Of a stretch of 64,000 bases of DNA, positions 41,992 to 45,739 are shown in pieces (positions within the stretch are counted from its first letter, which is position 1; the number at the start of each line of letters is the position of its first letter). Source of the stretch: Dyella sp. OK004 (lineage in GTDB: Bacteria; Pseudomonadota; Gammaproteobacteria; Xanthomonadales; Rhodanobacteraceae); assembly GCF_900114495.1 (NCBI RefSeq), contig NZ_FOZI01000002.1, forward strand, positions 310,001 through 374,000, in the 5' to 3' direction. Position numbers and translations under genes: made by a program. Below the pieces are notes generated by a model. The model was not told where the DNA came from, did not search any database, and worked only from the letters and a program-made list of their open reading frames with translations.

Positions 41992-42426
41992 TTACTTCAC
42001 GTGCACGGTGATCTTCTTCGACGCCAGCGCCGGGTCGAACGGAATGTGGTTCTCGTCGGCCAGTTCCAGCTGCAAGGTATGCGTACCGGGCTTCAACTTG
42101 ACAGTGGTTTCGGTCTGGCCGTTGCCGAAGTGGACATGCGTGTCGTCCTTCGGAATCGGCTGGCCGGCTACCGGCAGATCCGTCACGTCGATCAACAGAT
42201 GATGGTGGCCGGTGCCTTCCTTCTTCACGCCGGCCGGGGCCACGCCCATGCCTTTCAGGCCGAAGCTCACGGTGACTTCCTGCCCCACCGTGGCGCCGTC
42301 CTTGGGCGAGATGATGTAGACCTCGGCCCCGGCGGGCGACTTGGTCACCGGCAGCGTGGGAGTGTCGGCAGCGAACACCGCCCCGGTCACGGTAGCCAGG
42401 GCCAGAGCGAGCAGGATGCGCTTCAT
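41992..42426 (-). CDS. DUF4399-domain periplasmic protein
   Basis: A 144-residue exported protein: signal peptide 1-19 (ending AVFAADT), then one beta-rich DUF4399 domain with VYIISPKDGATVGQEVTVSFGL, GTGHHHLLIDV and DDTHVHFGNGQTETTVKL, finishing LELADENHIPFDP. The paired His motifs (HHH and HVHFG) could bind metal, but no function is established for the family. The GGAG ribosome site precedes the ATG by 8 bp. A single gene. Confidence 0.88.
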   Translation of the reverse strand: MKRILLALALATVTGAVFAADTPTLPVTKSPAGAEVYIISPKDGATVGQEVTVSFGLKGMGVAPAGVKKEGTGHHHLLIDVTDLPVAGQPIPKDDTHVHFGNGQTETTVKLKPGTHTLQLELADENHIPFDPALASKKITVHVK

Positions 42427-42616: not shown

Positions 42617-43777
42617 ATGCGCATCGGCATTGTCACCGAGACATACCCGCCAGAAATCAACGGCGTTGCACTCACCGTGCATAGCCTTGCCGCCGGACTC
42701 GCGTCGCGCGGACACACCGTCGACCTGATCCGCCCGCGCCAGGCACAGCCGTTTGCCGACGAACCCGGCATTGTGGCGATGGAGATGCGCGGTGCCTCGC
42801 TGCCGCGCTATCCCGGCCTGCGCTTCGGACTCCCCGCCGGACGCACGCTGCGTGAACGCTGGACTCGTCTACGGCCGGACGCCATCTATGTGGCCACGGA
42901 AGGCCCCCTGGGCTGGTCGGCGGTACGCGCCGCCAACAAGCTGGGCATCCCTGCGGCGACCGGATTCCACACACGCTTTGACGCCTATGCCAATCATTAC
43001 GGCGTGGGCTTTCTCACGCCGGTAGTGCGCCGCTACCTGCGCCGCTTCCATAACCGCGCTGCCGCGACGCTGGTGCCTACCGACGCCCTGGCGAGCGAAC
43101 TCAGCGCATTGGGCGTGGATACTGCGCGCCTGCTGCGCCGGGCGGTGGATACGCAATTGTTCCATCCGCGCTACCGCGACTTGGCTTTGCGCGCCAGCTG
43201 GAACGTGGACGGCAACACGCCGGTAGTGCTCTATGTCGGCCGCATCGCGCCGGAGAAAAACCTCGACCTCGCGGTACGCACCTTCCGCGCGATTCAACAG
43301 AAAGTACCCAAGGCGCGCTATGTGTGGGTCGGCGACGGCCCGGCCCGCGCCGCATTGCAGGCGGCCCACCCCGATTTCATCTTCGCCGGCATGCAGCGCG
43401 GCGAAGCGCTGGCGCGGCACTACGCCAGCGCCGACCTGTTCCCCTTCCCCAGCCTCAGCGAAACCTTTGGCAATGTGATCCTGGAAGCGCTGGCCGCCGG
43501 CCTGCCGGTGATCGCGTATGAGGAAGGTGCCGCGCGCGAACACCTCGCCACCGGCATCAACGGCTATCGCATCGATGCCGGCAACGAAGCTGCCTTTATC
43601 GAATCGGCAACGACACTGGCCAGCAACGCGAGCCTGATCCGCCATATGGGTCGCGCCGCGCAGGCCAGCATCGCCACCCTCTCACCGGACGCGGTCATCC
43701 GCGAATTCGAAAACCTGTTGAGCGAACTGGCTAAGGAGCACAGCGATGAACACTCTGCCGCCGCTGCACACGCCTGA
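42617..43777 (+). CDS. Glycosyltransferase family 4 protein
   Basis: A 386-residue GT-B-fold retaining glycosyltransferase. The N-terminal acceptor domain begins IGIVTETYPPEINGVALTVH and the C-terminal sugar-nucleotide domain carries VLYVGRIAPEKNLDLAVRTF and the EX7E motif in SLSETFGNVILEALAAG. This type (MgtA/PimB-like) often mannosylates or glucosylates lipids such as phosphatidic acid or diacylglycerol, which suits the lipid-phosphatase gene overlapping its end by 32 bp. The donor and acceptor are not known. The frame is open to 42503, but 42617 gives the family start. Confidence 0.88.
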   Translation: MRIGIVTETYPPEINGVALTVHSLAAGLASRGHTVDLIRPRQAQPFADEPGIVAMEMRGASLPRYPGLRFGLPAGRTLRERWTRLRPDAIYVATEGPLGWSAVRAANKLGIPAATGFHTRFDAYANHYGVGFLTPVVRRYLRRFHNRAAATLVPTDALASELSALGVDTARLLRRAVDTQLFHPRYRDLALRASWNVDGNTPVVLYVGRIAPEKNLDLAVRTFRAIQQKVPKARYVWVGDGPARAALQAAHPDFIFAGMQRGEALARHYASADLFPFPSLSETFGNVILEALAAGLPVIAYEEGAAREHLATGINGYRIDAGNEAAFIESATTLASNASLIRHMGRAAQASIATLSPDAVIREFENLLSELAKEHSDEHSAAAAHA

Positions 43778-44318
43778 CCTTTCCGCAGGTCCCCGCTTCG
43801 CTTTCGACCGACGGCTCTGCGTCGCCGCGAATCACTGGGGCGCGCGCCGCGCCGTCGGCTTGTTCTTCAGCATCGTCAGCCGGCTCGGCGATGGCGTGTT
43901 CTGGTACTCGCTGATGCTGGCGCTGGCGCTGCTCGATGGCCGGCGCGGCCTGCTCGCCGCCGCGCAGATGGCGATCACCGGCCTTACCGCCCTGCTTCTT
44001 TATCGCCTGCTCAAGCGCTGGACGCGCCGGCCACGTCCGTTCCGCGCCTGTCCTGGTGTGATCGCACACGTGCCGCCGCTGGACGAATTCAGTTTTCCCT
44101 CCGGCCACACACTGCAGGCGGTGAGCTTCACCGTCGTGGCACTCGCCTGGTATCCGCTGCTGGCGCCGCTGCTGCTGACCTTCACCACGCTGATCGGTGC
44201 GTCGCGCGTCATTCTTGGCCTGCACTATCCGAGCGATGTACTCGCGGCCACGGTGATCGGCAGTGCGCTCGGCGCGCTCTCGTTGTGGCTGATGCCGATG
44301 ACGCATTGGATGCATTGA
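43746..44318 (+). CDS. PAP2-family membrane phosphatase
   Basis: A 190-residue, multi-helix inner-membrane phosphatase. All three motifs of the PAP2/acid phosphatase superfamily are present: KRWTRRPRPF (KX6RP), PSGH in FSFPSGHTLQA, and SRVILGLHYPSDVLA (SRX5HX3D). Substrates are usually phosphatidic acid, phosphatidylglycerophosphate or undecaprenyl pyrophosphate. Its ATG lies 32 bp inside the glycosyltransferase gene, in another frame, behind GGAG, so it is coupled to it. The pair may act in one glycolipid pathway. It is followed by the DnaA-box repeat array. Confidence 0.9.
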   Translation: MNTLPPLHTPDLSAGPRFAFDRRLCVAANHWGARRAVGLFFSIVSRLGDGVFWYSLMLALALLDGRRGLLAAAQMAITGLTALLLYRLLKRWTRRPRPFRACPGVIAHVPPLDEFSFPSGHTLQAVSFTVVALAWYPLLAPLLLTFTTLIGASRVILGLHYPSDVLAATVIGSALGALSLWLMPMTHWMH

Positions 44319-44384: not shown

Positions 44385-44798
44385 CTATCCACAGGTTTCA
44401 CCGCATGCATTCCACAATCGCTGTGGAAAACCATGCTTTTCCCGCGCGCTTGTTGAGCAAAACATCGACAGCGCGTAGCAAGTCACTGTTGGCAAAGGCA
44501 CTGATGCGTGTTGTCCACAGGCTTACCCCGGTGACATCCACAGTGGCTGTGGAAAACCCTGTTCGACACGCTGGCGAAAACTTCGTCATGGCGTAGCAAG
44601 TGCTTGTTGGCAAAGCATCGCAATGCGCTTGTCCACAGACTTGCTCATACGACATCCACAGGCGCTGTGGAAAACACGATGCGGTTTACCGCGCGATGAC
44701 GAAAATGTTCGCAGCGTGTGCGAAGCATCGACAGCACAAGCACTTGCAGTGCTTTTCCACAGGCTTAGCCGAACAGTGTCCACAGTGGCTGTGGACAA
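44385..44798 (+). repeat. Array of about four 118-126-bp repeats with DnaA-box-like nonamers
   Basis: Unit starts: 44385, 44511, 44629 and 44753 (last unit truncated). Each begins with a nonamer close to TTATCCACA: CTATCCACA, TTGTCCACA twice, TTTTCCACA. About 26-37 bp later there is a palindrome TCCACAN(3-7)TGTGGA that includes an inverted TGTGGAAAA (three units) or TGTGGACAA (last). A shared GTAGCAAG...GTTGGCAAAG segment follows in units 1 and 2. The 551-bp gap (44319-44869) shows no gene and is less GC-rich than its flanks. Each box is at most one or two mismatches from the DnaA consensus, which suggests a DnaA-binding or titration locus; dnaA itself is not in this window. Confidence 0.8.
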
Positions 44799-44820: not shown

Positions 44821-44848
44821 GATGATGCCGCCTTGCGGCGGCATCATC
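44821..44848 (-). terminator. Hairpin downstream of accD
   Basis: Perfect 12-bp stem (44821-44832 with 44837-44848) with 4-nt TTGC loop, 21 bp beyond the accD stop. On the minus strand the stem is followed by GTTTCC, not a T run, so efficiency is uncertain. Confidence 0.6.

Positions 44849-44869: not shown

Positions 44870-45739
<870 letters not shown>

Follow-up and report, generated by a model that had tools for sequence, protein, structure and literature searches.

A Tandem Array of DnaA-Box Modules between a PAP2 Gene and accD in Dyella: a Candidate DnaA-Control Locus of the DARS Type

The 551-bp non-coding gap between a PAP2-superfamily gene and accD in Dyella sp. OK004 houses four imperfect repeats (window positions 44385-44798), each carrying DnaA-box-like sites of which the first two are arranged as in the DARS cores of E. 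coli. We interpret this array as a cis-acting DnaA-control locus of the DARS type, likely a variant that would recharge DnaA, assemble it, or do both, and we put the probability of this reading at roughly 0.5. The sequence, geometry and conservation of the array, and its position in relatives, are direct observations; DnaA very probably binds the array and a role in replication control is probable, and that the array reactivates DnaA, rather than titrating it or promoting hydrolysis, is about an even call.

Four modules between convergent genes

The window, by which we mean the whole stretch of 64,000 nucleotides that was analyzed, spans positions 310001-374000 of contig C6 in the 4.96-Mb source genome (G000; eight contigs). 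Within it, the array forms a single direct-repeat family of four 47-nt copies that share 72-81% identity with the reference copy and follow one another at distances of 126, 118, and 124 bp (Table 1). An earlier note on this DNA had placed the starts of the four units at 44385, 44511, 44629, and 44753, which proved exact, and had counted at least eight boxes. The cluster is real, but the count is higher: the 414-bp array holds 12 TCCACA/TGTGGA hexamers, three per unit and all at fixed spacing. The window outside the array holds 23 such hexamers in 63.6 kb (0.36 per kb). A thirteenth, weaker box-like site (7/9) lies at 44717-44725. The placement of the array between the PAP2 gene and accD likewise held, but the units, which had been given a forward reading, are best read on the minus strand, where each module runs box I (forward), 5 bp, box II (inverted), 17 bp, box III (inverted). 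The PAP2 gene and accD are convergent, with the array downstream of both. The lower GC content that had been claimed for the array relative to its flanks was confirmed (53.7%, compared to 66.7% for the PAP2 gene, 65.6% for accD, and 64.4% for the window).

Table 1. Features of the PAP2-accD gap and its flanking genes (window coordinates).
Feature	Position	Strand	Basis or remark
PAP2-superfamily gene	43746..44318	+	Pfam PF01569; runs toward the array
Array of four DnaA-box modules (in order of increasing coordinate: D, C, B, A)	44385..44798	-	Repeat and hexamer analysis
Module D, PAP2-proximal	44385..44430	-	Box coordinates and DnaA-box scores
Module D, box I	44422-44430		TTTTCCACA
Module D, box II	44408-44416
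Module D, box IIb	44397-44405		5/8 fixed positions
Module D, box III	44385-44393
Module C	44511..44556	-	Box coordinates and scores
Module C, box I	44548-44556		TTTTCCACA
Module C, box II	44534-44542
Module C, box IIb	44523-44531		4/8 fixed positions
Module C, box III	44511-44519
IHF-like candidate between modules B and C	44594..44609		Weak; 8/9 fixed positions on +, 7/9 on -
Module B	44629..44674	-	Box coordinates and scores
Module B, box I	44666-44674		TTTTCCACA
Module B, box II	44652-44660
Module B, box IIb	44641-44649		5/8 fixed positions
Module B, box III	44629-44637
Module A	44753..44798	-	Box coordinates and DnaA-box scores
Module A, box I	44790-44798		TTGTCCACA; G at the consensus A/T position; box scoring
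Module A, box II	44776-44784
Module A, box IIb	44765-44773		Degenerate; 5/8 fixed positions
Module A, box III	44753-44761		Plus-strand reading TTTTCCACA
Hairpin 3' of accD	44821..44848	-	Perfect stem of 12 bp with a 4-nt loop; resembles a terminator but has no long T run
accD (acetyl-CoA carboxylase carboxyltransferase beta)	44870..45739	-	Pfam PF01039, PF17848; runs toward the array

The convergent genes together with the hairpin might limit transcription through the array, and the hairpin might protect the array against read-through from accD. Transcription across DARS and datA is reported to harm these E. coli loci (PMC5010248), and the convergent-gene location of the array may exclude transcription from it. 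A comparable hairpin-like sequence 3' of accD was seen by eye in loci L008, L009, L011, and L014.

A strict search for TTWTNCACA returned four matches in the window, all of them inside the array, versus 1.18 expected; four matches were also reached in 2 of 100 shuffles, and this pattern by itself is an unconvincing test. In pattern searches of the genome, as opposed to a scan of the whole sequence for box density, TNTCCACAG had 75 sites, nine of which sit within 412 bp of array, and among the listed sites no other 500-bp stretch carries more than two. Because a reversed-pattern control gave 70 matches, the genome total is not enriched, and it is the clustering that stands out. The pattern accepts a box only when a G follows it, which leaves oriC undercounted. 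With up to one mismatch allowed, TCCACA-N4-CTGTGGANAAC matched the four units at zero mismatches and two other places at one, and the three-box module with a free spacer (3-30) occurs five times in the genome, four times in the array and once on contig C8.

The unit is therefore not scattered through this genome, the alternative against which the earlier note had set its proposal. It is very unlikely that the array is unrelated to replication, either as an ordinary intergenic repeat or as a structured RNA: tandem copies have expanded in some relatives (for example G048) and the palindromes could form hairpins, but this genome has a single array, box-flanking positions are retained while much of the unit varies, and Rfam has no match at the array, its one below-cut-off hit (16 vs 45 bits) covering accD and the hairpin. 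The structured-RNA form of this explanation was set aside on the Rfam result.

Box anatomy and comparison with E. coli loci

Scored against TTWTNCACA with N counted as a match, box I reaches 9/9 in three window modules and 8 in one, box III reaches 8/9 in three and 9 in one, and box II reaches 7/9 in all four. We then compared 137 distinct modules taken from all loci retrieved at that stage; in this set the invariant hexamers are a product of the search pattern, and the flanking columns carry the information. At the W position, box I has T in 93 modules, A in 26, and another base in 18, such that the A/T of the DnaA-box consensus is retained in 119/137, and the columns preceding it are G (110), T (125), and T (132). 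The box III hexamer is followed on its 3' side by T/C, then A (135/137 modules), A/G, and G. The retained W, along with a box I/II geometry equal to that of the E. coli DARS cores, upholds the original description of the array as DnaA-box-like. Across 18 genomes, the pair TCCACA-N(1-12)-TGTGGA gave 82 forward matches versus 33 in the reversed control over all gaps, and the gap was 5 in 56 of 75 listed forward rows (a hand count from which seven of the eight rows of G319 are absent).

The 17-bp spacer between boxes II and III keeps G at module position 25 (136/155) and A at positions 29 (130/155) and 30 (152/155). Within it, one clear register accommodates a fourth, degenerate box (IIb) that points in the direction of boxes II and III. 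In N17 spacers, the best register lies 2 bp from box II and 3 bp from box III, with a mean of 4.67/8 (n = 153; letter-shuffle control: mean 2.09, maximum 2.37), and in N18 spacers it lies 3 bp from both, with a mean of 4.94/8 (n = 17; shuffles: mean 2.09, maximum 3.0). Because the modules are related, these shuffles overstate independence, and the match between the N17 and N18 classes is the stronger point; in the window modules, IIb matches 4-5 of 8 fixed positions. E. coli DnaA is reported to favor paired boxes 2 or 3 bp apart, and the addition of one base to a 3-bp gap strongly lowered its binding (PMC11317965). Based on this preference and on the IIb register, we read the module as four predicted boxes in the order I (5) II (2-3) IIb (3) III, with gaps in bp.

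The DnaA protein of the source genome is identical to E. coli DnaA at 263 of 448 aligned residues and at 62 of 94 in domain IV. Thirteen of 15 E. coli residues compared are kept, including R281, R285, L290, R334, R399, R407, H434, and T435, and V211 and R245 differ. This conservation leads us to expect an E. coli-like box preference. L290 has been named as important for ADP dissociation (PMC4245941).

A protein other than DnaA, acting in nucleoid structuring, segregation, or the terminus domain and reading a half-site that happens to include TCCACA, is an improbable explanation for these sites. The conserved spacer positions (G at 25, A at 29 and 30) could suit such a dedicated protein, and the terminus-side location of the accD-linked arrays and the dispersal of modules in the other large family of the order (both described below) are compatible with it. 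However, the W degeneracy of box I and the 5-bp gap of DARS fit DnaA, as do the 2-3-bp register of IIb in two spacer classes and the box I/II format that the array shares with a canonical core linked to priA.

DARS is known experimentally from E. coli, where it stimulates ADP release from ADP-DnaA; it was reportedly introduced in a 2009 paper, and a 2019 paper is said to have dealt with the head-to-head DnaA contact. The DARS2 core is flanked by IHF (IBS1-2) and Fis (FBS2-3) sites. Calling boxes at a score of at least 7 of 9 in NC_000913, we located those of DARS1 at 208+, 222-, and 234- (stretch L120) and those of DARS2 at 636+, 650-, and 662- (stretch L119). In both cores, as in 4/4 modules of the array, boxes I and II stand head to head across a 5-bp gap, box III is oriented like box II, and the locus is intergenic. 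In contrast, box III starts at +12 from box II in E. coli and at +23 in 4/4 modules (24 elsewhere), and the array inserts a degenerate box at +11, between II and III, that E. coli DARS does not have. E. coli DARS is also a single core, whereas the array consists of several tandem modules; the gene neighbors differ (DARS1 occupies the bioD-uvrB gap); and where DARS2 has IHF sites the array shows a weak IHF-like signal and no firm site. Owing to the spacing of box III, we do not file the array as a member of DARS, although it may nonetheless function like one. The DARS cores are described as three uniquely arranged boxes in which I and II oppose each other for head-to-head DnaA contact, with release of ADP (PMC8682772).

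Between the two roles that had been proposed for the array, those of datA and DARS, the geometry points to DARS. datA, which promotes ATP hydrolysis on DnaA, is built as box 2, an IHF site, and box 3 with set spacing. Like the array, it is a group of DnaA boxes distant from oriC, but among its boxes scoring 8 or 9 we found no head-to-head 5-bp pair, leaving datA unsupported as a model for the array on this comparison. datA is further reported to need a placed IHF site (PMC4585315), and it sits 0.10 of the chromosome from oriC. Of 89 distinct 80-nt stretches after accD-linked modules, 11 score 8/9 for IHF on the module strand and none scores 9, against a shuffle mean of 1.2 and maximum of 5 (200 rounds; the 89 stretches are related). 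Nine of these 11 carry the site at one place, 22 nt after the module, and seven stretches reach 8/9 on the opposite strand, a count without shuffle control. These counts hint that an IHF site could belong to the definition of the module, but the signal is weak.

The array shares with oriC the presence of DnaA boxes and tandem steps of 2-3 bp (the latter reported for oriC in PMC11317965), but oriC has an A+T-rich stretch and the array gap has none (lowest 60-bp GC 45%). In this genome, the dnaA-dnaN gap (L001, 1774-2029) contains TTATCCACA-like boxes as well as 60 bp with a GC content of 23% and is probably oriC; dnaA lies on contig C8, apart from the array contig, and the dnaN ORF after the gap was assigned by eye. 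In line with the earlier note, we rejected the array as oriC on account of the missing A+T-rich stretch, the location of dnaA on another contig, and the separate dnaA-dnaN oriC. A secondary or former replication origin, or the remnant of a mobile-element origin, is scarcely credible: its DnaA boxes are clustered, but the lowest GC of the gap (45%) is far from the 23% of the dnaA-dnaN gap, the PAP2 gene and accD are not initiators, and the array recurs next to accD in seven genera.

Distribution and chromosomal position in relatives

With the spacer fixed at N17, the module was found in 144 of 233 family genomes and in 18 of 26 genera, with zero in the rows of the reversed control, and the exact N17 form is absent from 89/233. 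Where present, it frequently comes as tandem copies and next to accD. When one mismatch was allowed in 29 chosen genomes, 28 carried the module, at 2 to 15 copies per genome, and the control matched once (G080). With a free spacer (3-30), 336 of 398 genomes of the order match, versus one genome in the control; among the matches listed, spacers of 12, 13, 20, 23, and 29 occur once each. In 30 loci from 18 genomes in which the spacer was left unfixed, the II-III distances were 6 (7 modules), 16 (2), 17 (18), 18 (16), and 0 (1, from a wider script). The tally over all loci, many of which were retrieved with the spacer fixed, was 0 (1), 6 (37), 7 (1), 9 (1), 16 (2), 17 (138), 18 (16), 20 (1), and 29 (1). 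Spacers 6 and 16-18 would offer a natural geometry series for testing DnaA contacts on DNA.

Comparison of the gap across relatives, which the earlier note had proposed, identified accD by tblastn in 29 of 55 retrieved array loci (some of which overlap), spanning seven genera; nine array loci of g16 gave no accD in the same search. The nearest named relative of the window accD is that of Dyella marensis (92%). Of 80 named accD loci, five have N17 modules, namely Dyella marensis and four Rhodanobacter, in each case 3' of accD, and none has N18 or N6 modules. One of the loci, L008, also carries a module on the opposite strand, and five hexamers lie about 1.9 kb 5' of accD in locus L080. No modules were found 3' of accD in the Luteibacter locus or in the one Lysobacteraceae locus inspected. 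In L158 and L159, the array adjoins accD and a homologue of the window gene at 41992-42426, with no match to PAP2. The other large family of the order (f2, 11 genomes) has N17 or N18 modules, some paired and some single at several places.

Three g6 genomes (G048, G056, and G063) have a pair of module arrays separated by about 4 kb. One array occupies the PAP2-accD gap; the other lies on the far side of accD and, judging from the gene order of the window, probably on that of the trp genes too. The two arrays of G048 occupy C1 3654186-3654986 and 3659092-3659751, and the second repeats every 206-208 bp. In L155 and its relatives, the PAP2-proximal module differs from the other units in being followed by a recurring sequence of its own (TAGGTG...CTATC...GCAAAG; by eye); this module looks like the same unit across several genera.

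Arrays at the accD/PAP2 place are separated from dnaA by 0.340-0.412 of the chromosome (median 0.377, n = 13, from 12 single-contig genomes and one largest contig, the source genome being a draft outside this set). Within the 3-kb locus, twelve of the 13 have accD and one has only PAP2. Nine g16 genomes have arrays at other places, roughly 0.16 to 0.39 from dnaA (worked by hand). By the same measure in E. coli, datA lies at 0.10, DARS2 at 0.21, and DARS1 at 0.33. Relative distance from oriC is thus conserved for the accD/PAP2-linked arrays and varies for arrays elsewhere. The DARS and datA loci of E. coli are reported to occupy conserved relative distances from oriC (PMC5010248).

These positions bear on a rather unlikely explanation in which the array serves as a DnaA sink or inactivator, its 12-16 boxes titrating DnaA, or a datA-like complex hydrolyzing ATP, with copies added for capacity. 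ATP-DnaA oligomers would be accommodated by the number of boxes packed into 414 bp and by the II-IIb-III tandem, relatives vary in copy number, as a sink would predict, and the weak IHF-like element reappears at 22 nt past the module, an IHF site being something that datA is reported to need (PMC4585315). However, the absence of a head-to-head 5-bp pair among the datA boxes scoring 8 or 9 argues against this explanation, as does the distance of the accD-linked arrays from dnaA (median 0.377), where a sink doubles late; datA lies at 0.10, and box enrichment in E. coli is reported near oriC (PMC12371093).

A canonical core beside priA and a possible mechanism

In addition to the array, the pattern TCCACA-N5-TGTGGATAA-N3-TGTGNA, a canonical DARS-type core, occurs exactly once in each of 31/31 chosen family genomes (in one of them only with one mismatch) and zero times in the control. 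priA adjoins this core in all 31. The source genome has its core at C8:765021-765049, and its priA copy carries Pfam PriA_3primeBD. Between dnaA and the canonical pair or core lies 0.034-0.240 of the chromosome (median 0.106; 31 genomes, 30 of them single contigs; for G088 the largest contig was used, and a pair match supplied the priA-type site). At zero mismatches, the core was also found in 8 of 11 f2 genomes, but not in G244, G253, or G459. The priA core and the array have the I/II pair in common, whereas the core is single copy, has TGTGGATAA as box II, and keeps the E. coli spacing of box III (+12).

Because this canonical core is already present, the array may serve another purpose. The DARS-type interpretation of the array must also be weighed against a box II that scores 7/9, a displaced box III, a degenerate IIb, weak IHF-like sites, the few deviating spacers, the spread in copy number from 2 to 15, and the 89 of 233 family genomes without the exact N17 form. 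If the interpretation is correct, ADP-DnaA bound to boxes I and II would meet head to head via the AAA+ domains, as proposed for E. coli DARS, and the pair would drop its ADP and depart as apo-DnaA, to be recharged with ATP. The same-direction series II-IIb-III could hold further DnaA molecules head to tail, adding an ATP-DnaA-dependent assembly, and these extra molecules would either stabilize the complex or turn it off when ATP-DnaA is abundant. Four copies of the module would multiply capacity. A terminus-side locus would be copied late, and this would fit a reactivator better than a sink.

More broadly, and at somewhat less than even odds, the Xanthomonadales/Lysobacterales may carry a new class of DnaA-control locus. 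This class would be defined by a four-box module that joins the DARS pair to an oriC-like strong/weak tandem; it would form terminus-side arrays in many Dyella/Rhodanobacter-type genomes and be scattered more widely in the second large family, it would coexist with a single canonical core next to priA in the family tested, and it could act as a DnaA switch set by the ratio of ATP-DnaA to ADP-DnaA. Our searches of the open-licence literature, where absence is not proof, found no description of arrays of this type for this bacterial order. A priA-linked core and a second, expanded class of module would suggest that DNA sites recharge DnaA in a wider range of bacteria than the E. coli relatives for which the DARS2 core is described, and would open replication timing to study in an order for which we found no such work in that literature.

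A related DARS-type core pattern is present in 176 of 369 gammaproteobacterial genomes, with zero in the rows of the control, although some of these matches may be oriC. On the pattern matches, and with the same proviso for oriC, the spread of the DARS type would appear to exceed the E. coli relatives named in DARS papers; the DARS2 core is described as conserved in E. coli-related species (PMC4245941). In the source genome, a degenerate N17 module was seen at C8:758178-758217 (L006), about 7 kb from the priA-linked core. Comparable degenerate copies are found at 5-10 kb from this core in G048, G056, G070, and G080; the first two of these genomes also have intact tandem modules next to the core.
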